Virus record (IMG/VR): IMGVR_UViG_3300049719_000183
Coordinates: 1-64,000 of that record
From: a virus
Length of the DNA: 64,000 nt
Direction: 5' to 3' (one strand)
Both the position numbers and the translations under genes were made by a program. Below, one piece after another: positions 2,082 through 49,162 of the stretch. Below the pieces are notes generated by a model, which saw nothing but the letters and a program-made list of their open reading frames with translations, was not told where the DNA came from and did no database searches. The stretch's first letter is position 1. Each line of letters begins with the position of its first letter.

Positions 2082-2284
2082 TTTTGACCGTATTCTCGAT
2101 TCAAGATGTGCAAGAAAACGCGGCCTTCCTCTCGCGTGCAACTGACCTCCAAATAATCCTGACCGCTCGCCGTTTGATAGCCCGGCTTGAAACTGAAGGG
2201 GGTTCCCGCCCGTATTAGGATGGAGCAGGCGTGGGTGGTTTTCTGCCAATTTTCACCACTGGAGAGGTTGAGTGATATTTTCAT
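2078..2284 (-). CDS. Unrecognised small protein (68 aa)
   Basis: Starts with an ATG that overlaps the helicase stop codon by four bases, so it is translationally coupled to the helicase. Contains ILIRAGTPFSFKPGYQT, a beta-rich stretch, and ends LHILNREYGQK. No family recognised. Confidence 0.6.
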   Translation of the reverse strand: MKISLNLSSGENWQKTTHACSILIRAGTPFSFKPGYQTASGQDYLEVSCTREEGRVFLHILNREYGQK

Positions 2285-4998
2285 CGGTCGTCTATGGCCT
2301 CTAAGAACCAGCTAGGAAGGTCTCTCTTCGTGCTGTGAATGAGGCGGCTGATGTCTGAATCGATGGCGTAGGTGACGCAGGTGTCGTCTTTGGCTCGCAT
2401 GCCCCTACCGCACGTCTGGACGAAGCACTTCACGGCCTCCATGTGATACCACTCAGGATCCCGAGCCATACGGGCCTTCACTACCTGATCGCCCAGGCTG
2501 GGATATTGGCACTTCAGAACGATTTGCCAACGGCACAGATCGTAGGCGAAATCAAAGCCCTCGAACAGGCTTGGGCTGATGAGGATGCTTCCAGGTGTCT
2601 CGGCGTGGCGCTTCATCGCTTCATCCCGAGCGTCTACATTTTCTGGGTAGGCGATTCGGCCTGCAAATCCAGCCTGAATGAGACCGTGCACAACCTCGTC
2701 GGCGAAGGCGTACGAGTGGGTGTGTATGACGCCTCGATCCGTGTGATTCTGGACAATCTTGGTGATGAGGCCCATCATGCGAGGTAGCATCACGTCCCTG
2801 CTCTGCTTGGCCAGGCTGCCAGCGTTGAGAAGGTGAATGGGGCGTCTTTCCTTGGCGAAATCGCTGGGAGCCTTGTAGTGCGCCACAGAGTCGGGATGCA
2901 GGCCCATCTCATGGCAAAACACTGACTTTCTCCCGATGAAGGCACTCATGTAGATGCGTCGGGGAAAGGCGTCGAAATAGTCGTGGAAAAAGGGGCCTAC
3001 ATCGATGGGTTTGCAGAGGATGGTGAGATTCTTCGTGCGCTCGTTCACGTCGTGCCAGTACACCCAGCCGCCAGGATCCGCTTGAAGCCGCTTGTAGGCG
3101 ATGGACACCCGCTCGTACTCCTGTTTGGCCTCGAATATCTCCCGGGCGTCAGCATCCGATGAGCCGACATCCTCGGCCATCTCGATCAGCACCTTTAGAC
3201 GTTCGTAGCTCTCAGGCAGGAACGTGGCCCCGAGCCAGAAGATGAAATCATGGATGCTCGTGTTGAGCGACATCATCTCATCTGCCAGCGAGCGGTCCCT
3301 CTTGTATAACTTCTCGTAGCTCAACTCGATGCCGACAAGGGAAGTCAGGGTTTTTTCCAAATTGTGACAATTGTGAACTAGGACGCCGTTGGCGAAGTAA
3401 TTGTGGTTTCCCTCAACTTCGATATTGTAGACAAAACCGTCTGGGCACAGTCCTCCAAATGTTCCGTCACCTGACTGTTCCAAAATCTCAACACGATCCA
3501 CCCTAATTCTTTCAAACGTCGAGTCTTCCAAGAGTCCCTCGTCTTCTGTTGAAGGGTTCTGTGGCTGTTCCCGTCCACCTCTATCGCTAACTTGTACTCC
3601 ACAAGTCCAATGTCCATACGATAGCATTTCACTCGGGGCATTATTTCGGAGGGAGGGGTTTGAGCGTTCATTGGCTGCTCTTCTGGCTGAAAACCTCCCA
3701 TGCCAACCGCGAGTTCCATCTTCGGATTCAGTCCAAGGGTCTTTAACTTCTCGTACAGTTCCGTTTGCCATTTCGTTGGACCCCACCCATTGCCCCGACG
3801 CAGGGCCAATTTCTTTCCTTTCATTGAAATTTTTATCTTCTCTATGACGCCGGGTCGATGTACCGGGTTGTTCTGCCGCATGCGTTTTGAGATTTTCTTG
3901 GAATCCCGTAACTGGGTGCGCGTCATGGTTTCCGACCACACTGAAAGCGACCTGGCTCGGCAGCATTTCTCTGAACAATAAGCGTAACCGTGAGACTTGA
4001 AGCGTCCGAGCGACGACCAGGGTGGATTTCCGTACTCGCAAATAACTGGCCTTGAACAGTGCTTGCAGTTTGTTAGTGCCTGCTCTCGGTTCAATCTCCT
4101 GTGAATTTTGTAGCATTCTTCCGAGCAGCAGAAATAACCCAACCTTATGGCGTGTCTGTTTTGATAGCCCGGCTTGTGAACCGCACGGTAAGCGTATCTC
4201 CGACAAACCACGCAGCGGTAAACGATGGGTTCTGCGGTGCACATACCTACCTTCTGTGTTTTTGGCTGGGATGTAAGTATCATCTGAGAAAAATGGGTGG
4301 TTGGGTGTGCAAATTATGCAGCTTTTGTCAGAAAACACCAACCTACACAGGGCCTTAGGCTGTGACCTAAATACCTTAGTAATAGTACTTAACTCAACAT
4401 TTTTAGTGATGTGATTGAAACTATGCAGGGCGTCTCCAACGTGTAATAGATTTATAGGGGTTGTGTCTATAACTACAGTGGATGGAAAACATTCATCCAG
4501 CACCAGCACAGCCCTTGGATACATGCTCTTCACGTACGCCGCATCGGTTAGGAAATAGGCGTAGTTGGTGACACCCAAAATGCTGTTCAGGAACAGGTCC
4601 TTCTGTATTTTGTAGGCGCACTCACCCGCTTTTTTCATCGGGCACGGTTTCACAGCGAGGCCACAGAATTTGAACCTTGGGCACGGGTATTCGATGGCGC
4701 TCTTGATGAGCTGAGCGCTGAAACCTCCCACCCCGAAGCGACCCAGGTCTGTGGCAATCTGATCCTGCAGGGCCTTCTGGACCACGAGCATGTAGCCCCC
4801 GGGTTGCAGTAGCGGATCGTTTGTGGGTCCACTCAGCCACCGGCACAGCGTGGCGCCCACTGCTGTTTTGCCGAATCCTGTAGGCGCTTCGATGATGATG
4901 TCCTGGTATCCCTTCGCAAGTGCATCCTCCGTGAAGGCCAGAGCCTCCACTTGTGGCTCCCGAGGGACAGGCAGTGGGAAATAATCGAGGGCAGGCAT
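2281..4998 (-). CDS. DinG/XPD-type SF2 DNA helicase interrupted by an intein
   Basis: The extein is an SF2 helicase of the DinG/XPD (Rad3) group. Walker A is APTGFGKT (residues 38-45). Four cysteines at about 106, 112, 119 and 127 are spaced like the iron-sulphur cluster of that group. The Walker B/DECH box ends the N-extein (LVLDE, 165-169) and resumes as CHN after the intein. Motif VI, QTCGRGMRAKDD, lies near the C-terminus. The intein covers residues 170-543, so the spliced product is about 531 aa. I prefer the ATG at 4998 over the in-frame GTG at 5040: it gives a natural N-terminus (MPALDYF) and TGTAAACA lies just upstream. Likely role: 5'-3' unwinding in replication or recombination. Without splicing the DECH box is broken and the enzyme should be inactive. 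Confidence 0.88.
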   Translation of the reverse strand: MPALDYFPLPVPREPQVEALAFTEDALAKGYQDIIIEAPTGFGKTAVGATLCRWLSGPTNDPLLQPGGYMLVVQKALQDQIATDLGRFGVGGFSAQLIKSAIEYPCPRFKFCGLAVKPCPMKKAGECAYKIQKDLFLNSILGVTNYAYFLTDAAYVKSMYPRAVLVLDECFPSTVVIDTTPINLLHVGDALHSFNHITKNVELSTITKVFRSQPKALCRLVFSDKSCIICTPNHPFFSDDTYIPAKNTEGRYVHRRTHRLPLRGLSEIRLPCGSQAGLSKQTRHKVGLFLLLGRMLQNSQEIEPRAGTNKLQALFKASYLRVRKSTLVVARTLQVSRLRLLFREMLPSQVAFSVVGNHDAHPVTGFQENLKTHAAEQPGTSTRRHREDKNFNERKEIGPASGQWVGSNEMANGTVREVKDPWTESEDGTRGWHGRFSARRAANERSNPSLRNNAPSEMLSYGHWTCGVQVSDRGGREQPQNPSTEDEGLLEDSTFERIRVDRVEILEQSGDGTFGGLCPDGFVYNIEVEGNHNYFANGVLVHNCHNLEKTLTSLVGIELSYEKLYKRDRSLADEMMSLNTSIHDFIFWLGATFLPESYERLKVLIEMAEDVGSSDADAREIFEAKQEYERVSIAYKRLQADPGGWVYWHDVNERTKNLTILCKPIDVGPFFHDYFDAFPRRIYMSAFIGRKSVFCHEMGLHPDSVAHYKAPSDFAKERRPIHLLNAGSLAKQSRDVMLPRMMGLITKIVQNHTDRGVIHTHSYAFADEVVHGLIQAGFAGRIAYPENVDARDEAMKRHAETPGSILISPSLFEGFDFAYDLCRWQIVLKCQYPSLGDQVVKARMARDPEWYHMEAVKCFVQTCGRGMRAKDDTCVTYAIDSDISRLIHSTKRDLPSWFLEAIDDR
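3374..3589 (-). repeat. 3' block shared with intein 2
   Basis: Two stretches are identical to the reverse complement of intein 2: 3468-3589 (122 bp) equals 13956-14077, and 3374-3444 (71 bp) equals 14101-14171. A divergent 23-bp patch separates them in both copies. The block carries the nuclease active site and the intein C-terminal splice motif. Confidence 0.92.
3378..4283 (-). CDS. EDxHD (Vsr-like) homing endonuclease nested in intein 1, +1 frame
   Basis: 301 residues in the +1 frame relative to the helicase. Paired cysteines (CVVC, CCSEEC, CKHC, CSEKC) suggest two zinc ribbons in the first ~110 residues. A NUMOD3-like segment (RMRQNNPVHRPGVIEKI) follows, then a Vsr/DUF559-like nuclease core with IEVDGNSHRTLQQKTRD, matching the E-D-x-H-D signature of phage homing endonucleases. 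The stop codon lies 8 bases before the intein end, so the nuclease C-terminus shares its bases with the intein C-terminal splicing block. An ATG at 4244 aligns better with the start of the copy at 13286 and may be the true start. Expression would need internal initiation or frameshifting. Confidence 0.75.
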   Translation of the reverse strand: MILTSQPKTQKVGMCTAEPIVYRCVVCRRYAYRAVHKPGYQNRHAIRLGYFCCSEECYKIHRRLNREQALTNCKHCSRPVICEYGNPPWSSLGRFKSHGYAYCSEKCCRARSLSVWSETMTRTQLRDSKKISKRMRQNNPVHRPGVIEKIKISMKGKKLALRRGNGWGPTKWQTELYEKLKTLGLNPKMELAVGMGGFQPEEQPMNAQTPPSEIMPRVKCYRMDIGLVEYKLAIEVDGNSHRTLQQKTRDSWKTRRLKELGWIVLRFWNSQVTEHLEDCAQTVLSTISKLRETTITSPTAS

Positions 4999-5055
4999 AA
5001 AGATGTTTACAGGCTGAGTTCTTTGAAGAACTGTGCGCACCTCGTAGTTAGAAAT
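4999..5055. promoter_or_regulatory. Divergent start region with TGTTTACA and TAGTTAG
   Basis: This 57-bp gap separates the leftward helicase from a rightward gene. TGTTTACA at 5004-5011 reads TGTAAACA towards the helicase ATG. TAGTTAG at 5045-5051 lies four bases before the rightward ATG at 5056. The two neighbours thus carry the two different start-proximal motifs seen throughout the window. Confidence 0.5.
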
Positions 5056-12297: not shown

Positions 12298-12309
12298 TTC
12301 TCAGGGGGT

Positions 12310-15162
12310 GTGATCACCCTCAAGGAGACTGCCACCCGTCTGATAGCTGCAGGACCGAAGGCCGAGACAAGCCTCATCATAGATCACTTTCGTTTTCAGC
12401 CTCCCGATTACTGGAGGAGCCCTCGTTATCAACTTTACAGGGAGACTGGCGGCGAACGGGGCTGGAACGGCTACGTCTACCCGGCGCAGCGCCAGAAGGA
12501 TGGTTCAGTGGTTCTCGGTCGCGGTCACAAGGACGAACTTCTGAGTTTGCTGGAGGTGGAGGGCGTTCAAGTTGATGGCGAGCGCCTCCTGGAGAGTCCA
12601 TTTCAGTCACTCACTCCAGATGACATTCCAGACGATCTCCTGCCCGGGTTCGAGCACGAGCTAACGCATGATCAGAGGGCCTGTGTCCTGACGTTGCTGA
12701 GGTACAGCTTCGGATGTGTGCGTGTGTCAGTGTCTGGAGGCAAGACGGCCATCTTTTTCGCACTGGCAGCCATGATCAAGAGCCGACACCCGAAGGCCCG
12801 TTGCCTGTATCTGGTGCCCACGGAGCGCCTGGTGAAGCAGGTGACCAAGGAGGGCCGGAAGTTTCTCCCCGACTGGCACATCACCCAATTCGGTGGTGAT
12901 GAGAAGGACAGCACGGGTGCCGATGTGGTGGTTGCCACGGTGGCGACACTCAACAAGCGCTACAAGTACCTGCTCCTCGACAACTGGTTCAAGACGTTCA
13001 TGGTGCTGCTGGTGGATGAATGTTTTCCCTGCAACACTCAGGTAAATGGACGGTGCATTTCTGACATTTTACCCGGCGATAGGGTTCCCTCCTGCAACCA
13101 CCAGACAGGTTGCATTGAATTACGCAAAGTAACGCGCATTTTTAGGTCAAAACCCTCTGCAATGTGTCGTCTTACACTATCAAATGGTAAAACCCTACTC
13201 TGCACCCCGGGACATCCCCTGTGGACGGGAACCAGGTACACACCAGCTATACTATGTTTAGGAGAGAAGATGGTGTACTTAATAAATGATAAAGAAGATA
13301 ATAGAGGGTCACTCGGAGTGTGTAGTTTGCCACGCTATGGCAGAGGTGAGATACGACAAGAAACCCTATTATCGGAGCCCCCAAGCAGTGTACGGGGGTC
13401 AGTTTGTGTGCTCCGGCGCCTGCAAACAGAAACGACGCAGAAATCTTGTGCGGAAGGCCCGGAACACATCCAGCTATGTGATAAAAAAATTGGTTGTTAT
13501 CTGCAACAACTGTGGGAAGCCTGTAAATTGTCGTGGAGGACGGTCAAAACTTCCCTACTATCAACGGTTGGGGGCTGCTCGGAAGGGGCGTGCCTATTGT
13601 TCAGAAGAATGCAAGAAAGCTTGGTCCACCTCCCGTTGGTCTTCTACTATGAGACGAACAAATATACGGGATCGTGCCATTATTTCGGCTCGAATGAAGA
13701 CAAACAACCCCTCCTCAGACCCAGAAATCTCAGCCAGAATAGGGCAAAAATTGAAGGGGCGTGCAATGGCTCTTCGTGCTGGAAATGGCTGGGGGTTCAC
13801 AAAGTGGCAACTTATTTTGAACGAAGCTCTAAAGTTGGAGAACTTATCCACAGAATTGGAGTTTCCGGTCCCATTCCATCACCACATACCTGCGGAGGGC
13901 GAGCCTCCTCCCCCAAAATGCCACATGATAGACATTGCGCTACCTCTGTTAAAGATAGCGATAGAGGTGGACGGGAACAGCCACAGAACCCTTCAACAGA
14001 AGACGAGGGACTCTTGGAAGACTCGACGTTTGAAAGAATTAGGGTGGATCGTGTTGAGATTTTGGAACAGTCAGGTGGAGCGACACACATCGCTGTGTGT
14101 CCAGACGGTTTTGTCTACAATATCGAAGTTGAGGGAAACCACAATTACTTCGCCAACGGCGTCCTAGTTCATAATTGCCACCACCTGTCATCGGGCAAGA
14201 CGTGGCAGACCATCGTTACCAGCGTACCTGCCTTTTATAGATTTGGGGCCAGTGACGGGTTGAAGAACGAGCGCAAGGACGATCTTCAATTGGGCATCAC
14301 CCTGCGTGGCTTCCTGGGTCCTGAGCGACATGAAGTGAGTCTGCTGCCACTCATCAACAACTCGCTTGTGGCGAAGCCCTACATCTATCTCGTGGATGTG
14401 CCCGAATGGAACAAGCGATTTGACGACTTACCTCACACAGCCGAGGCAGGATCCATCGCCTGGGCTGTCATCGACGGAGATTGGAAGCAGGGAACGTACA
14501 TTTGCCCTGCCTCTGACGAGGATGAGGATGGTGATGACATCCGTCGTCTAGGCTGGCAGCGTGTCATGATCGATGGCGAGGAGGTGGAGGTGGAGAGTCG
14601 TTGGTGCCTCCTCAGAAGGGCCTATGATGAAGGCATAGTTCGCTTCAAGGAGCGCAACACTTTCGTCGTGAATTGGGCGAAACACTTCTCGGACCAGGGC
14701 AAGCCCACGCTCGTGGTGGCTACCAGGACGGCTCACGTCTACATCCTGCAGACGATGATGGAGGCGGCAGGGCTGCAGCCGAAAGTGCTGACAGGCATGT
14801 CCACCTCGAAGGAGCGGGATGAGACGTTCGAGTGGCTGGTCAACACAACCGGCTCCATACTCATCAGTCCCATCGTGAAAGAAGGCGTGTCACTGCCCGA
14901 GCTGCGGGCGGGCATTGTGGCTGATCCTGTGGCCTCACCAGATCTGGCCCGTCAGATCATAGGCCGCTTCATCCGCACGAAGAAGACAGGATCCAACGAG
15001 GCCGAAGTGGTGATGTTCATCGACCGCCAGTACAAGTCGGCCAGGTATAACAGCATGGCCCTGATCAAGCAGTTGGAGAAAATACGGGGCTATAGCTTCT
15101 ACTACCCCTGCCAGGGTCCTGACAAAATCGGCCCACTTTTCGAGGCCGTGTCGATGTTCTAG
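12310..15162 (+). CDS. UvsW-like SF2 DNA helicase interrupted by an intein
   Basis: 950 codons from a GTG at 12310. N-extein: an unrecognised ~115-residue N-terminal domain, Walker A in RVSVSGGKTA (~138-147), motif Ia-like YLVPTERLVKQV, ADVVVATVATL, and Walker B VLLVDE (232-237), where the intein begins. C-extein: resumes CHHLSSGKTW, then TLVVATRTAHV, LTGMSTSKERDE, ISPIVKEGVSLPE and motif VI RQIIGRFIRTKK. Spliced length is about 565 aa, similar to T4 UvsW-type helicases, which act in recombination and replication fork remodelling. TAGTTAG overlaps the stop codon. Splicing is needed to rebuild the DECH box. Confidence 0.88.
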   Translation: MITLKETATRLIAAGPKAETSLIIDHFRFQPPDYWRSPRYQLYRETGGERGWNGYVYPAQRQKDGSVVLGRGHKDELLSLLEVEGVQVDGERLLESPFQSLTPDDIPDDLLPGFEHELTHDQRACVLTLLRYSFGCVRVSVSGGKTAIFFALAAMIKSRHPKARCLYLVPTERLVKQVTKEGRKFLPDWHITQFGGDEKDSTGADVVVATVATLNKRYKYLLLDNWFKTFMVLLVDECFPCNTQVNGRCISDILPGDRVPSCNHQTGCIELRKVTRIFRSKPSAMCRLTLSNGKTLLCTPGHPLWTGTRYTPAILCLGEKMVYLINDKEDNRGSLGVCSLPRYGRGEIRQETLLSEPPSSVRGSVCVLRRLQTETTQKSCAEGPEHIQLCDKKIGCYLQQLWEACKLSWRTVKTSLLSTVGGCSEGACLLFRRMQESLVHLPLVFYYETNKYTGSCHYFGSNEDKQPLLRPRNLSQNRAKIEGACNGSSCWKWLGVHKVATYFERSSKVGELIHRIGVSGPIPSPHTCGGRASSPKMPHDRHCATSVKDSDRGGREQPQNPSTEDEGLLEDSTFERIRVDRVEILEQSGGATHIAVCPDGFVYNIEVEGNHNYFANGVLVHNCHHLSSGKTWQTIVTSVPAFYRFGASDGLKNERKDDLQLGITLRGFLGPERHEVSLLPLINNSLVAKPYIYLVDVPEWNKRFDDLPHTAEAGSIAWAVIDGDWKQGTYICPASDEDEDGDDIRRLGWQRVMIDGEEVEVESRWCLLRRAYDEGIVRFKERNTFVVNWAKHFSDQGKPTLVVATRTAHVYILQTMMEAAGLQPKVLTGMSTSKERDETFEWLVNTTGSILISPIVKEGVSLPELRAGIVADPVASPDLARQIIGRFIRTKKTGSNEAEVVMFIDRQYKSARYNSMALIKQLEKIRGYSFYYPCQGPDKIGPLFEAVSMF
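13286..14167 (+). CDS. EDxHD (Vsr-like) homing endonuclease nested in intein 2, +1 frame
   Basis: 293 residues starting MIKKIIEGHSECVVC. Cysteine pairs at about 12/15, 42/46, 73/76 and 105/109 suggest two zinc ribbons. A NUMOD3-like repeat (RMKTNNPSSDPEISARI) covers ~137-152. The nuclease core has FPVPF, HMIDIALPLLKIAIEVDGNSH and RDSWKTRRLKELGW, with candidate catalytic residues E227, D229, H233 and D242. Last codon and stop (TAG at 14165-14167) lie inside the intein C-terminal splice block. No strong ribosome binding site is adjacent to the ATG; AGGAGAG lies about 20 bases upstream. Likely promotes intein homing by cutting intein-free helicase alleles. Confidence 0.78.
   Translation: MIKKIIEGHSECVVCHAMAEVRYDKKPYYRSPQAVYGGQFVCSGACKQKRRRNLVRKARNTSSYVIKKLVVICNNCGKPVNCRGGRSKLPYYQRLGAARKGRAYCSEECKKAWSTSRWSSTMRRTNIRDRAIISARMKTNNPSSDPEISARIGQKLKGRAMALRAGNGWGFTKWQLILNEALKLENLSTELEFPVPFHHHIPAEGEPPPPKCHMIDIALPLLKIAIEVDGNSHRTLQQKTRDSWKTRRLKELGWIVLRFWNSQVERHTSLCVQTVLSTISKLRETTITSPTAS
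13956..14171 (+). repeat. 3' block shared with intein 1
   Basis: Identical to the reverse complement of 3468-3589 over 122 bp and of 3374-3444 over 71 bp, with a 23-bp divergent patch at 14078-14100. The 5' two thirds of the two inteins are not alike at DNA level. Confidence 0.92.
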
Positions 15163-15359
15163 TTAGACTGCGCCACACCCATAGGACAATAGGGATAGCC
15201 CCATGAGCACCCGTCCACACGTCAGTAGCGAACCGGCGCACCTAGTAACGGCCCGGCAGGAGGCGGGACTGGTGGACAGCCACATCAGCTCGAAAGTCAC
15301 AATCCTCCTGCCGGGTTTCTTGCTGTTCTGGGAGTGGCAATGCCAAAACGTAAGACACT
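15163..15359 (+). other. Gap with a 12-bp inverted repeat
   Basis: No convincing gene. CCCGGCAGGAGG at 15252-15263 is the exact inverse of CCTCCTGCCGGG at 15304-15315, followed by a T-rich run, so a terminator or long-stem leader for the next gene is possible. An open frame from the ATG at 15203 runs through the hairpin into the next gene in another frame and has no family-like sequence. Confidence 0.45.
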
Positions 15360-33802: not shown

Positions 33803-36223
33803 ATGGCGACGATCCTAACATCCAACCTCACTCCCGTTTCGCTTCTTGCTGCGACGGACAGTGTCGTTGTTCAGCCTCTTGGTGGTGATACGTCGAAGAT
33901 CACTCTCAGTGCGTTGGCGAACTCTGTGTTGACGGTGATAAATGCCGGTGGAGCAACAGGTTTCAACCTGGGCACCGCCAACCTGACAGGCATTCTTGGG
34001 TCGGCATTCATTGGCAGCATCAACGGCAGCATCATCCAGGCGGGTAGCATCACCGCCAACCAGATTGGCAGCATCAACGGTGGCGTCATTCAGGCGGGCA
34101 CCATACAAGCGACTGCCATTGGCAGCATCAACGGTGGCGTCATTCAGGCGGGAACGATTGCGGCGGCTGCCATTGGCAGCATCAACGGTGGCGTCATTCA
34201 GGCGGGCACCATACAAGCGACTGCCATTGGCAGCATCAACGGTGGAATAATCCAAAATGGCACGATACTGTCGGCAGCCATAGCGAGCATCAACGGGGGA
34301 ATTATCCAGGCGGGCACCATTCAGTCAGGGTCCATTGCCAGCATCAACGGGGGAATTATCCAGGCGGGCACCATCACCTCCACGCAGGTCGGCTCGATCA
34401 ACGGCAGCCTCATTACGGCAGGTACCATCACGACGACGCAGCTGGGTTCGATCAACGGCAGCGTCATCCAGGTGGGCACCATCACCTCTGGTCAGATTGC
34501 CAGCATCAACGCCAACACGATCACCAGCGGCACCATTTCGGCAGGTCAGGGAGTGAGCATCAACGCCAACGCCATCAACGTGGGTGTGATCCTCACCAGT
34601 CAGCTTGCAGCGGGCATCATGAACTCGCTTGCCCTGCTTTCCAATAACCTGAACGTGGTGCAGACGGTAACCTCTCTGCCCTCGGTGCCGAACGCCAACT
34701 ACCCGGCGGGCTCCCTGGTGCTGCTGACCACGACCAACACGCTGTACCAGTGCAACGTGGCGGGAACGGGATGGGTGGCAACGACGGCCTCCAGCACGAT
34801 CACGGGTTACATCCAGCAGAGCGACATCACCAGTGTTAACTGCAGCGTGTTGAACGGCGTCATTGCGGCAGCCAGGATAACCAGCGTCAACGCAGCGGCC
34901 ATCAACGGCACCATAATGGTGGGTGGAGGCTGCAACATTCAGGCAGGCGTTCTGACAGGATCCATCTCGGCCAACACCGTAAACATCGATGCCACAAACA
35001 TCCAGGGATCTCTGTCTGCCGCCGTGATCAACAACATCACGATCTCACCCGGACAGATTGGTGCCGGTACGTTGCCCATTAACGTGCAGATTTCTGCGGG
35101 CAACCTCGGCAACTTGACTATTCCTGCCACCAACATCACCTCGGGCACCCTGGCCTCCACGGTGATGATTCAATCGGCCAACATTACCGGATGCACGATT
35201 GCCCTCAGCCAGCTTGGCGCAGGCACGCTGGCCTCCAACATAGCACTCTCTGCCACTGCCATTGGTAACATGACCATCGCGCCCACACAGCTTGGCGCAG
35301 GCACGCTGGCCTCCACGGTGATGATTCAATCGGCCAGCATTACCGGATGCACGATTGCCCTCAGCCAGCTTGGCGCAGGCACGCTGGCCTCCAACATAGC
35401 ACTCTCTGCCACTGCCATTGGTAACATGACCATCGCGCCCACACAGCTTGGCACAGGCACGATGCCCGTAGCGGTGACCGTACAGTCGGCGAGCATCAGT
35501 GGATGTTCCATTGCGCCCAGCCAGCTTGGCGCAGGCACAATGCCCGTAGCAGTGACCGTACAGTCGGCGAGCATCAGCGGATGTTCCATTGCGCCCAGCC
35601 AGATTGGCACAGGCATACTCTCTTCCAACGTTACTATTCAGACGGGTAGCATCAGTGGTCTCACCATTGCGCCTAGCCAGATTGGCTCCGGTTCGCTCAA
35701 CTCAAACGTGTTTATTTCCGCTGGTTCTGTGAACGGCACATTCAACAATTGTAGCTTTATTACAGGTTCAGGCTCAGGCCCAGGTGGACTCCAAACCTCC
35801 ATCACGTCGTCAGGCCTCTCCATGGGTTCCATTGTCATGGCAGGAGGAGGAAACCAGAACACCATCACCGTGGGTACCGGAGGCTCGTACACCGTGACGA
35901 TAGGGGGAGGAATTGCAGCCGGGTACATCAACATCGGCCCCGGGCCAAGCATAGCCCTTAACGCTTACTCACTCAGCACAATGAACTCGGGTCTGTCTGT
36001 GCAGTCGGGGTTGACAGCCACAGGGGGCCTCACCATCGACACATTGAAGTTCACAGGCTCTACGGGTGCTTCTGCACCTGGCACCGCGAATTACAGTTTC
36101 TGGCCAACTAGCGGCGGGGCCTACTATGGCACGGGCCAGTTCCCCTTCCTGGGCAACCCCACCGGCTGGTGCACATTTACAGACTCTGGTGGAGGCACCA
36201 AGCGTTTCCCCTACTACACTTGA
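33803..36223 (+). CDS. Giant repetitive tail fibre (beta-helix-like)
   Basis: 806 residues; TAGTTAG-GGC before the ATG. Residues ~70-270 repeat an 18-residue unit (SINGGVIQAGTIQATAIG). Residues ~390-640 repeat longer units ending in SQLGAGTLASNIALS or SISGCSIAPSQLGAGT. Regular turns with Gly, Asn, Ile and Ser suggest a trimeric or single-chain beta helix. The C-terminal ~90 residues (YSFWPTSGGAYYGTGQFPFL) look like a distinct tip domain. Likely the main host-recognition fibre. Confidence 0.85.
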   Translation: MATILTSNLTPVSLLAATDSVVVQPLGGDTSKITLSALANSVLTVINAGGATGFNLGTANLTGILGSAFIGSINGSIIQAGSITANQIGSINGGVIQAGTIQATAIGSINGGVIQAGTIAAAAIGSINGGVIQAGTIQATAIGSINGGIIQNGTILSAAIASINGGIIQAGTIQSGSIASINGGIIQAGTITSTQVGSINGSLITAGTITTTQLGSINGSVIQVGTITSGQIASINANTITSGTISAGQGVSINANAINVGVILTSQLAAGIMNSLALLSNNLNVVQTVTSLPSVPNANYPAGSLVLLTTTNTLYQCNVAGTGWVATTASSTITGYIQQSDITSVNCSVLNGVIAAARITSVNAAAINGTIMVGGGCNIQAGVLTGSISANTVNIDATNIQGSLSAAVINNITISPGQIGAGTLPINVQISAGNLGNLTIPATNITSGTLASTVMIQSANITGCTIALSQLGAGTLASNIALSATAIGNMTIAPTQLGAGTLASTVMIQSASITGCTIALSQLGAGTLASNIALSATAIGNMTIAPTQLGTGTMPVAVTVQSASISGCSIAPSQLGAGTMPVAVTVQSASISGCSIAPSQIGTGILSSNVTIQTGSISGLTIAPSQIGSGSLNSNVFISAGSVNGTFNNCSFITGSGSGPGGLQTSITSSGLSMGSIVMAGGGNQNTITVGTGGSYTVTIGGGIAAGYINIGPGPSIALNAYSLSTMNSGLSVQSGLTATGGLTIDTLKFTGSTGASAPGTANYSFWPTSGGAYYGTGQFPFLGNPTGWCTFTDSGGGTKRFPYYT
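34009..34260 (+). repeat. 54-bp tandem repeats in fibre gene
   Basis: Units starting ATTGGCAGCATCAACGG at 34063, 34117, 34171 and 34225 repeat every 54 bp with near-exact DNA identity (34063 and 34171 units agree throughout). Confidence 0.9.
35165..35620 (+). repeat. 156-bp and 78-bp repeats in fibre gene
   Basis: A 156-bp unit beginning ATGATTCAATCGGCC at 35165 recurs at 35321. A 78-bp unit beginning CCCGTAGC at 35464 recurs at 35542. Both keep the reading frame (52 and 26 residues). Confidence 0.85.
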
Positions 36224-36240: not shown

Positions 36241-37560
36241 ATGGCAGAACGCAATCCTCCTCTTGTTACTTCCTGGGTGGTCGTCACGTTCAAGAAACCG
36301 CTCCAGTGGAGCCGCTGTGACGATGAGGTGTGGACGTTCAACCCGCACGTCCGCTACATCCTCAACCATCACCAGCTTGAGGGCCTGAAGCCCTTCATCG
36401 CCACAATCAGCGAGCTGAAGACGAGCGGCCAGTATCGTCAGCTTTCCTCCAGCACGCCGCTCCAGGGAGCCCACATCCTTATTGAGCGCTATCGTGACAG
36501 GGGCATCGGCGACTACCTGTTCCTGTCCGGCGTCCTCCAGTACATCTACGAGATGTCGGGTAGCACCTCGCTCATTGACCTGTACGCCCTCACTGACAGG
36601 GCCGGGGTGCTGCGTTTCCATCCTGCCCTGGGGAACACAGCGGGGGGTGAAGCATACGGACCCCTGGCAGGCCCCGTCCTCTACGACAGCCTCCCACATT
36701 ACACGGCCCATTGGTTCGTGGATCAGGTGACCGAGCACGTAGAAGAGCCAGACCAGCTGAATGTCTACGACCAGCTCTACCGCCAACTGAGCATCGATCC
36801 GAAGAATGTCTCACCGAGGTACAAGAGGCCCTACGTATACCTGGAAGTATCGGACTGGAGAGATTTGGACAGCATCTACGCCACCTGCTATGGTGCTCAG
36901 CAGGTGGACCTGCGGATGACTCCGTACATTGTGCTGTGCCCGGCCGCCTATGGTGCCCTCCGCAGCGCTCCCTACAGCCTGTGGTTGAACTTGGCTGCGG
37001 CCCTGGCTGACAAGTTTGTGGTGGTGCTCGTGGGCCGCACGACGGACCAGGGCCAGCTCCCAATGCCTGACATGACGTTCGGGGAATTTTATCAGCAGAT
37101 CGACGCCATGGCGAAGAAGAACCCAAAGCGCATCTTCAACCTCATCGGCCCCACTCCACTCCGTCCGATGATGGCGTTGGTGGCGAGGGCCACGGCTCTC
37201 GTGTCCCTTGACTCGGGGATGCTCTACGTGGCCCAGGCCTCAAGAGTGCCCGCTGTTTCCATGTGGGGCACACACGCACCACACGCACGCCTTCTCTATG
37301 ATGCTCCGTACATGCGCGGGGCGATTTGGAACCGACAGGCGTGCCCGTGTTCGCCGTGTTGGGCCTACGCGGGATTCCCTGAGTCCAAGTGTCCACAGGG
37401 AGCCTCGCAACGGGCCTGCGCCCCCATCGCTTCGGTGACTGTGGATGATGTCATGAAGAAGCTTGACGTGGTGCTCACCGATGTGGATGGAGCCCGTCCT
37501 GCCTTGCCTCTCAGCCCTTCTGACGCCATAAAGGTTGTGCCCGATACTCCTAATCCTTAA
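36241..37560 (+). CDS. GT9-like glycosyltransferase (second copy)
   Basis: 439 residues; AGGAGAGG directly before the ATG. Paralogue of 10222-11355. HILIERYRDRGIGDYLFLSG (~79-98) is the N-domain nucleotide-sugar loop; FNLIGPTPLRPMMALVARAT, SLDSGMLYVAQA and PAVSMWGTHAPHARLLY form the C-domain donor site of GT9 enzymes. The Cys-rich CPCSPCWAY and CPQGASQRAC segment matches the first copy. Position after the fibre gene suggests a fibre or capsid glycan as substrate, but DNA or cell-surface glycans are possible. Part of its 3' region is duplicated at 48.8 kb. Confidence 0.8.
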   Translation: MAERNPPLVTSWVVVTFKKPLQWSRCDDEVWTFNPHVRYILNHHQLEGLKPFIATISELKTSGQYRQLSSSTPLQGAHILIERYRDRGIGDYLFLSGVLQYIYEMSGSTSLIDLYALTDRAGVLRFHPALGNTAGGEAYGPLAGPVLYDSLPHYTAHWFVDQVTEHVEEPDQLNVYDQLYRQLSIDPKNVSPRYKRPYVYLEVSDWRDLDSIYATCYGAQQVDLRMTPYIVLCPAAYGALRSAPYSLWLNLAAALADKFVVVLVGRTTDQGQLPMPDMTFGEFYQQIDAMAKKNPKRIFNLIGPTPLRPMMALVARATALVSLDSGMLYVAQASRVPAVSMWGTHAPHARLLYDAPYMRGAIWNRQACPCSPCWAYAGFPESKCPQGASQRACAPIASVTVDDVMKKLDVVLTDVDGARPALPLSPSDAIKVVPDTPNP

Positions 37561-37612
37561 GGATTAAGGAACACTGTAAACAAATACTGTTTACAAAAAC
37601 AGTATTGGCCTT
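37552..37612 (+). promoter_or_regulatory. Palindrome and paired TGTTTACA elements
   Basis: AATCCTTAAGGATT (37552-37565) is a perfect palindrome over the GT9-like stop. TGTAAACA (37575-37582) and TGTTTACA (37588-37595) form an inverted repeat with 5 bases between, and ACAGTATTGG follows before the ATG at 37613. The whole block is repeated at 48899-48959. Confidence 0.6.
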
Positions 37613-37834
37613 ATGATGCGAGTCATGAGGTACGAAGTCGTTGTCGGAAACATCGGAACAGTGTACTCGGGATCCAATGAGCGCCAAGCTCAGAAGGATT
37701 ACGTCGAGTACGTCGAGCAGTCCAAAACCAACTATGGGCGGGCTGCGGGCGAGAGTGTAACCTTCTTCAAGGACGGTGAGCCTACTCACTCGTTCGTCGG
37801 CTCCATCGAACAGGAGGCAGAGCAGTACGCATGA
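37613..37834 (+). CDS. Small conserved phage protein (YEVVVGNIGTVYSG type)
   Basis: 73 residues (ATG at 37613 or 37616). YEVVVGNIGTVYSGSNERQA and YGRAAGESVTFFKDG are hallmarks of a small protein common in phages, function unknown. First gene of the long rightward accessory cluster, behind paired TGTTTACA elements. Its first 55 codons are duplicated at 48960. Confidence 0.75.
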   Translation: MMRVMRYEVVVGNIGTVYSGSNERQAQKDYVEYVEQSKTNYGRAAGESVTFFKDGEPTHSFVGSIEQEAEQYA

Positions 37835-48642: not shown

Positions 48643-48819
48643 ATGTCACTATTCCAGCCCACCGATCCGAAGGACTTGGAGATTGAGCGGCTGACTACCG
48701 AGCGTACCCGGATGGTGCAGTGGGGGAACTTGGAGCGGGTGCCCGAGTTGGACCAGCACATCCACCGGCTGCGGGAGATGAAGCACCGGGAGAGGTTGGC
48801 GAGGGAGAATGCCAGGTAA
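48643..48819 (+). CDS. Small coiled-coil protein (58 aa)
   Basis: MSLFQPTDPKDLEIERLTTE followed by HIHRLREMKHRERLARENAR. Highly charged helix. Its stop codon is where the duplicated segment from the GT9-like gene begins. Confidence 0.55.
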   Translation: MSLFQPTDPKDLEIERLTTERTRMVQWGNLERVPELDQHIHRLREMKHRERLARENAR

Positions 48820-49162
48820 CCCAAAGCGCATCTTCAACCTCATCGGCCCCACTCCACTCCGTCCGATGATGGCCATAAAGGTTGTGCCCGATACTCCTAA
48901 TCCTTAAGGATTAAGGAACACTGTAAACAAATACTGTTTACAAAAACAGTATTGGCCTTATGATGCGAGTCATGAGGTACGAAGTCGTTGTCGGAAACAT
49001 CGGAACAGTGTACTCGGGATCCAATGAGCGCCAAGCTCAGAAGGATTACGTCGAGTACGTCGAGCAGTCCAAAACCAACTATGGGCGGGCTGCGGGCGAG
49101 AGTGTAACCTTCTTCAAGGACGGTTACGCTGTCAAATCAAGTACGTGGTGGGGGGTTCTGGC
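48818..49162 (+). repeat. Mosaic of duplicated segments
   Basis: 48818-48873 equals 37120-37175 (inside the GT9-like gene). 48872-49124 equals 37525-37777 (its 3' end, the regulatory block and the start of the next gene). 49131-49162 equals 51098-51129. The first two are joined at a short GGC/GCC match, skipping 349 bp of the source. Confidence 0.93.
48899..48959 (+). promoter_or_regulatory. Copied palindrome and TGTTTACA pair
   Basis: Exact copy of 37552-37612: AATCCTTAAGGATT, TGTAAACA (48922-48929) and TGTTTACA (48935-48942). Confidence 0.6.

Follow-up and report, generated by a model that had tools for sequence, protein, structure and literature searches.

A phage helicase intein whose homing endonuclease is probably a separate gene overlapping it out of frame

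Results

A helicase intein and a nuclease occupy the same phage DNA

We analysed a window of 64,000 nucleotides (nt) of viral DNA, positions 1-64,000 of the IMG/VR record IMGVR_UViG_3300049719_000183 (72,485 base pairs (bp) in full), in which an SF2 helicase gene is interrupted by an intein whose DNA also carries an EDxHD homing endonuclease in another frame. The reading that we favour, with a probability of roughly 0.86, is that of a mobile phage intein with a homing endonuclease encoded as an overlapping gene of its own and not as an intein domain. The helicase frame would yield the helicase with a mini-intein (Hint N and Hint C joined by a long linker without structure) that would excise itself after translation, and the same DNA read one base later would yield a free nuclease, most likely through internal initiation at an ATG behind Hint N. 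Helicase genes without an intein would be cleaved by this nuclease at their Walker B site and would acquire the intein by copying during repair; stops would be kept out of the host frame across the nuclease because the helicase must be made. The sequences support both frames, both predicted folds, their conservation, stop avoidance, dual constraint and empty insertion sites. Two copies of the element, and only two, are present in the whole virus record. Their features are as follows (slashes within motifs mark intein boundaries).

12310..15162, plus strand: host gene of copy 2, SF2 helicase open reading frame (ORF) with intein; ResIII, DEAD and Helicase_C matches flank an Intein_splicing match
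12310-13020, plus strand: N-extein of the copy 2 helicase
13021..14175, plus strand: intein copy 2, 385 codons, located after the Walker B DE and before the CHH of the helicase (VDE/C...VHN/CHH)
13021..13290, plus strand: Hint N-terminal splicing block, host frame, AlphaFold (AF2) residues 1-90, predicted local distance difference test score (pLDDT) about 95
13291..14022, plus strand: central linker, host frame, open, predicted disordered
14041..14178, plus strand: Hint C-terminal splicing block, host frame, last residues VHN/C, by profile match and AlphaFold
14176-15159, plus strand: C-extein of the copy 2 helicase
13286..14167, plus strand: EDxHD (Vsr/DUF559-like) homing endonuclease ORF, 293 amino acids (aa), +1 relative to the helicase frame, by DUF559 match and fold
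13931..14068, plus strand: nuclease catalytic core with family-invariant D216, E227, D229, H233, D242 and K245
14041..14164, plus strand: stretch that truly codes twice, for nuclease GWIVLRFWN... and for Hint RVDRVEILEQ...; across the family its synonymous sites are suppressed
2281..5040, minus strand: host gene of copy 1, DinG/YoaA-like SF2 helicase ORF
3370..4491, minus strand: intein copy 1, 374 codons, same design as copy 2
3378..4283, minus strand: out-of-frame EDxHD nuclease ORF of copy 1, +1 frame, likely start ATG at 4244-4242

The copy 2 helicase frame runs without a stop over 950 aa, intein included, and the extein junctions read ...LLVDE upstream and CHHLSSG... downstream. All splicing residues are present (C1, a TxxH block reading CTPGH, and VHN/C with Cys+1), and the intein is matched by the Pfam profile PF14890 (5e-10) and the NCBIfam profile TIGR01443 (5e-9). 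The nuclease begins at ATG 13286 and stops at 14167, leaving 8 nt to the intein end, and its last ~41 codons use the same DNA as the C-terminal splicing block; the copy 1 nuclease ends at 3378 and has the identical relative frame. An earlier sequence-only reading had placed the helicase, intein and nuclease of copy 2 at coordinates that all proved correct when re-derived, although the NUMOD3-like segment that it proposed has no NUMOD3 match in Pfam or PHROGs.

EDxHD nucleases are known in introns too (PMC3943268; PMC12350094), and the insert could be pictured as a group I, group II or other intron that is removed from the RNA and encodes an ordinary intron nuclease. The helicase frame, however, holds complete Hint blocks (Cys1, TxxH, HN, Cys+1), an open host frame would be superfluous for an intron, and no Rfam intron matched 12300-15170 even at E 0.1, nor was any found in eight sources at the gathering threshold, so that removal from RNA is very improbable.

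The arrangement recurs across phages at one site

Relatives were collected by a nuclease search of isolated phages and by scans of viral and bacterial contigs, which gave 226 loci. In 141 of these, a single open frame holds both Hint N and Hint C, and the nuclease is in +1 (0 in +2 and 0 in frame); 8 others, including L211, are split and retain the +1 relation to both halves, one (L180) is split with a different N offset, 2 are truncated at Hint C, 2 lack a nuclease match and 72 lack Hint. Fusion of the nuclease to the intein in frame was rejected. Forty isolated-phage records of Vibrio, Corynebacterium and Pseudomonas phages carry the element, among them Vibrio CP-T1, Corynebacterium phi673 and Pseudomonas MR14, and all 40 annotate a single coding sequence (helicase, P-loop NTPase, coil-containing or hypothetical protein) and leave the nuclease unannotated; such nucleases are missed because one long helicase is annotated. 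Mobile inteins with an out-of-frame nuclease thus look widespread and seem to have been largely overlooked. The element is also present in the cultured bacterium Ktedonobacter racemifer DSM 44963 (L099), whose genome would be a handy source of it for laboratory work.

The host proteins of the family are P-loop NTPases (SF2 and SNF2 helicases, DnaX-type clamp loaders and one terminase), and insertion is nearly always directly after the Walker B acidic pair (DE/C), with a few cases 1-3 residues further on, such as DEAH/C. The listed relatives share the splicing residue pattern, with SN/C or GN/C in a minority. Intein-free alleles were found in Vibrio phages 1.251.O, 1.024.O and 234P10, which read ...QDECHHV... 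at the exact site and have flanks 85-93% identical.

The double open frame is not due to chance

As a null model, the nuclease protein was held fixed, its synonymous codons were redrawn and stops in the helicase frame were counted. The probability of no helicase-frame stop was 7.6e-7 for copy 2 and 3.8e-6 for copy 1 with the codon usage of the flanking helicase, or 1.6e-8 and 2.2e-7 with that of the nuclease itself, and the third frame holds 24 stops in copy 2 and 21 in copy 1. Across 70 non-redundant elements, for which about 965 or 824 host-frame stops are expected, the count was 0. The chance of 10^-5 to 10^-6 put forward from the sequence alone was therefore roughly right for copy 2 but far too mild for the family. 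At the +1 offset every nuclease codon with a final T creates a host-frame stop when AAN, AGN or GAN comes next; T-ending codons made up 0/3607 nuclease codons at these risky places against 3358/10022 elsewhere. By comparison, 71 control loci with the nuclease domain and no Hint always had stops in the corresponding frame (median 13, never zero). Host-frame stops in relatives, which would have spoken against two coding frames, were looked for and none was found in the 141 loci; the few relatives that do have them carry the host gene as two ORFs with a split intein.

A sequencing frameshift was rejected: many independently sequenced isolate phages agree, and one indel cannot explain both copies and 139 other loci. 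The broader proposal that only one frame is real, with an active nuclease and a host frame left open by coincidence, as a relic or through such a frameshift, can point to a host-frame centre that is not conserved in sequence. It is nevertheless very improbable, given 0 stops against about 820-960 expected in the 70 elements, the agreement of isolates sequenced independently, and two intact Hint ends of which Hint C is conserved beyond what the nuclease requires.

Selection differs between the intein centre and the Hint C overlap

The sequence-only reading had held that one stretch of DNA is selected for two proteins and had proposed a check for dual-frame constraint on aligned relatives. When constraint was measured on independent pairs of relatives, two regimes were found. 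Over the ~250-codon centre, where third codon positions of the nuclease were the most variable and amino-acid identity was 0.61 for the nuclease against 0.38 for the host frame, it is only the nuclease sequence that is conserved, selection on the helicase frame being confined to keeping it free of stops; the host-frame sequence of the linker simply follows from that of the nuclease. Across the Hint C overlap all three codon positions varied nearly equally, with identities of 0.67 for the nuclease and 0.61 for the host frame, and 4-fold sites of the nuclease differed at 158/616 (25.6%) compared to 1516/2884 (52.6%) in the centre (centre greater than overlap in 54/58 pairs, p = 4e-11). Since both proteins are similarly conserved there and 4-fold sites are suppressed, the overlap encodes two proteins under residue-level constraint, and the conservation of Hint C exceeds the needs of the nuclease. 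The claim of selection for two proteins thus stands at residue level for the last ~41 nuclease codons, whereas in the centre the host frame is merely stop-free. One codon illustrates this: the arginine of the nuclease motif GWxVLRF is encoded by AGR in 83/99 elements against 10/35 of those without Hint, and the other frame can therefore keep the glutamate of the Hint motif RVxxVE.

Predicted folds agree with the two regimes

With alignments built without the INPHARED loci, AlphaFold predicted a folded nuclease (mean pLDDT 87) and a host-frame intein with order at residues 1-90 and 335-385 and, between them, pLDDT values mostly under 60; this agrees with the substitution regimes in having ordered Hint ends, a disordered linker and a folded nuclease. 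The nearest solved folds of the host-frame intein were the RecA mini-intein, gp41-1 and DnaB inteins (Foldseek), and those of the nuclease were 3hrl (2e-12) and I-Bth0305I, 3r3p (E 2.5e-4), which were also the top Foldseek matches. The copy 2 nuclease has the catalytic E, DxxxH and D and the PD-(D/E)XK-type fold that define EDxHD enzymes. Copy 2 should splice, and its nuclease may cut intein-free alleles and so bring about homing, for which the empty sites in Vibrio phages are indirect evidence.

Homing endonucleases often decay after fixation, and the nuclease might accordingly be degenerate or unexpressed in an element that is now immobile, with the splicing part alone functional. We regard this as improbable: the catalytic residues are invariant in the family, third codon positions are the most variable, and a decaying ORF would not remain open in both copies of the window.

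The nuclease is likely made by internal initiation

The proposed initiation region of the copy 2 nuclease is as follows.

13260..13288, plus strand: AGGAGAG at 13260, TAATAA, then ATG 13286

Among the 70 elements, 63 have an ATG open to the nuclease within Hint codons 72-112, compared to 31% in control windows, and Shine-Dalgarno pairing before the best start had a median of -5.8 kcal/mol against -3.9 kcal/mol in controls (p = 3e-5). Three elements (L053, L082 and L083) have textbook starts of AGGAGG plus ATG. Because the ATG behind Hint N is enriched and the pairing stronger, internal initiation is likely in the family. For copy 2, in which the spacing of 20 nt exceeds the ideal, the start mechanism is uncertain.

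The main rival is programmed +1 ribosomal frameshifting from the helicase frame, which would produce an N-extein-Hint N-nuclease fusion and no free protein. A fixed shift would give the identical +1 offset of all EDxHD elements, and copy 2 lacks an ideally spaced Shine-Dalgarno sequence. Against this, the nuclease frame is closed directly upstream by a TAATAA abutting ATG 13286, the starts behind Hint N and the Shine-Dalgarno pairing are enriched as above, HNH versions in +2 exist, and the fixed offset is explained by the overlap of Hint C and nuclease; we therefore consider frameshifting unlikely. A mechanistic reason for the constant +1 was dropped in view of the HNH nuclease in +2 in L263/L295 and of the Hint C overlap that EDxHD elements share and that accounts for their offset; common descent is the simpler reason.

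Several points weigh against a separately made homing nuclease. The AGGAG at 13260 sits 20 nt from ATG 13286, an unusually long distance, and roughly one family member in three lacks a convincing Shine-Dalgarno sequence; a promoter of the nuclease's own was looked for and none was found. A search for relatives of the C-extein gave no match and hence no intein-free allele of the copy 2 helicase. Splicing, nuclease translation, cutting and homing are what we infer from the sequences.

The two copies have exchanged their catalytic ends

One stretch of copy 2 closely resembles copy 1.

13945..14175, plus strand: 87-97% identical to copy 1 (counterpart 3370-3600, minus strand), about 57% just upstream

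The rise in DNA identity from about 57% to 87-97% is abrupt and occurs at a single point, and the DNA-binding parts of the two copies remain different. The catalytic core and Hint C have recently been exchanged by recombination between two different helicase genes.

Split inteins and other nucleases

The fractured layout, with host gene and intein in two ORFs, was found in L056, L079, L176, L179 and relatives only; copy 2, with its unbroken host frame at 12310-15162, is not of this kind. In L056 the Hint N gene (444-1013), the nuclease (910-1671) and a Hint C gene with its own ATG (1551-2669) follow one another, as they do in L079 (203-817, 711-1472 and 1352-2455), and in both the nuclease overlaps and the frame relation are retained after the split. 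A quick, unrooted tree grouped the split clade (L056, L079 and L176) with the contiguous L046, L081 and L222 (support 97) and dispersed relatives lacking Hint among contiguous ones too, which fits an origin of split forms from contiguous ones. Since the splicing part and the nuclease would already be separate proteins, stops in the unconserved linker and a new start before Hint C could convert a cis-splicing intein to a fractured split one, and this conversion would leave the nuclease and its frame relation unchanged. One host-frame stop lies in the linker of L211 at about 4015-4017 in an otherwise contiguous element; it may be an incipient split, a site of readthrough or an error.

As the A6 profile was too divergent for a Hint-based scan, loci were also sought blind to the nuclease with the Hint C motif alone, as a DNA pattern for NYFANG(V/I)LVHNC, which gave 83 loci, 49 of them contiguous with an EDxHD nuclease in +1. 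Terminase inteins with nucleases of the HNH class were among the others.

L267:762-1478 and L300:7203-7790 (minus strand): HNH nucleases out of frame, +1
L263:592-1245 and L295:5095-5748: HNH_3 nuclease out of frame, +2

The probabilities were 2.5e-4 and 1e-4 for the +1 cases (L242/L267 and L300), and 0.02 for the +2 case (L263/L295), which taken by itself is only modestly significant. These HNH terminase inteins are independent origins of a nested out-of-frame nuclease. The LAGLIDADG-type inteins L234, L266 and L298 (type assigned by eye from the translation) have the nuclease in frame. For phage inteins other than the LAGLIDADG type, a nested out-of-frame endonuclease could be the normal condition and the way by which natural split inteins come about, a generalisation that we offer tentatively and at slightly less than even odds.

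Fractured loci with other endonucleases between the halves or fused to them were seen in L241/L244/L272/L273, L269, L288, L275, L292 and L286; that of L292 is HNH with a Pfam match, and the others are GIY-YIG-like, Vsr-like or HNH-like by eye.

Other features of the window

37120-37777 and 48818-49124: a pair of direct repeats of 56 nt and 253 nt (100% identity) that recur at a distance of about 11.3-11.7 kb; their copies adjoin at 48.8-49.1 kb and are separated by 350 nt at 37 kb
33956-35707: 54-nt and 78-nt repeat arrays, both within ORF 33803-36223, probably a fibre-like protein

Discussion

If this reading is true, an intein need not be one protein with its nuclease built in, and a large family prints splicing and homing proteins on one DNA. 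As overlapping genes go, the family would also be unusual in being well sampled and in having two selective regimes that are separable along the sequence. Such an element may explain the origin of split inteins, offering a concrete and testable route to these biotechnology tools of unclear origin. The loci also add new Hint domains by the dozen, for splicing in cis and in trans, at a single conserved position: the Walker B motif of helicases, clamp loaders or terminases.

The sequence-only reading had supposed the arrangement to be undescribed. Our literature search found no description of an out-of-frame nuclease in a splicing intein (a preprint on non-canonical actinophage inteins, judged by its title, doi 10.1101/2025.01.02.630785, lay outside the search and may overlap), but an out-of-frame HNH insertion in phage methylases, the ShiLan domain, was published in 2025 (PMC11855218), and its disjunct distribution implies homing (PMC11855218). 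In both systems an in-frame insert without stops conceals a homing endonuclease that is read in another frame; the ShiLan insert, which lacks a domain for splicing, persists as a protein loop, whereas the element described here has both Hint blocks, an EDxHD nuclease and a dual-coded Hint C.

Canonical large inteins share with this element the Hint splicing domain, insertion at a conserved active site and mobility by endonuclease, but their LAGLIDADG or HNH endonuclease is an in-frame domain of the intein protein. Closer in nuclease class are the 'fractured genes' reportedly described by Dassa in 2009, split inteins whose halves flank a free-standing EDxHD endonuclease. They are likewise found in phage host genes and have a nuclease translated apart from the intein; their layout is that of L056, L079 and L176. 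In the element of our window, by contrast, the host gene is unbroken and the nuclease overlaps the intein out of frame, and since a single host frame continues across the nuclease, splicing should occur in cis.

Among solved structures, I-Bth0305I (3r3p) and NGO0050 (3hrl) share the catalytic fold and the E-V-D/N-G...D-K pattern of the nuclease, whereas I-Bth0305I is encoded in an intron and binds DNA through a part unlike the zinc-ribbon N-terminus found here. The gp41-1 and NrdJ-1 split inteins (PDB 6qaz, 8ubs) resemble the splicing part in Hint sequence and fold; they are split, whereas the Hint domain described here is contiguous.

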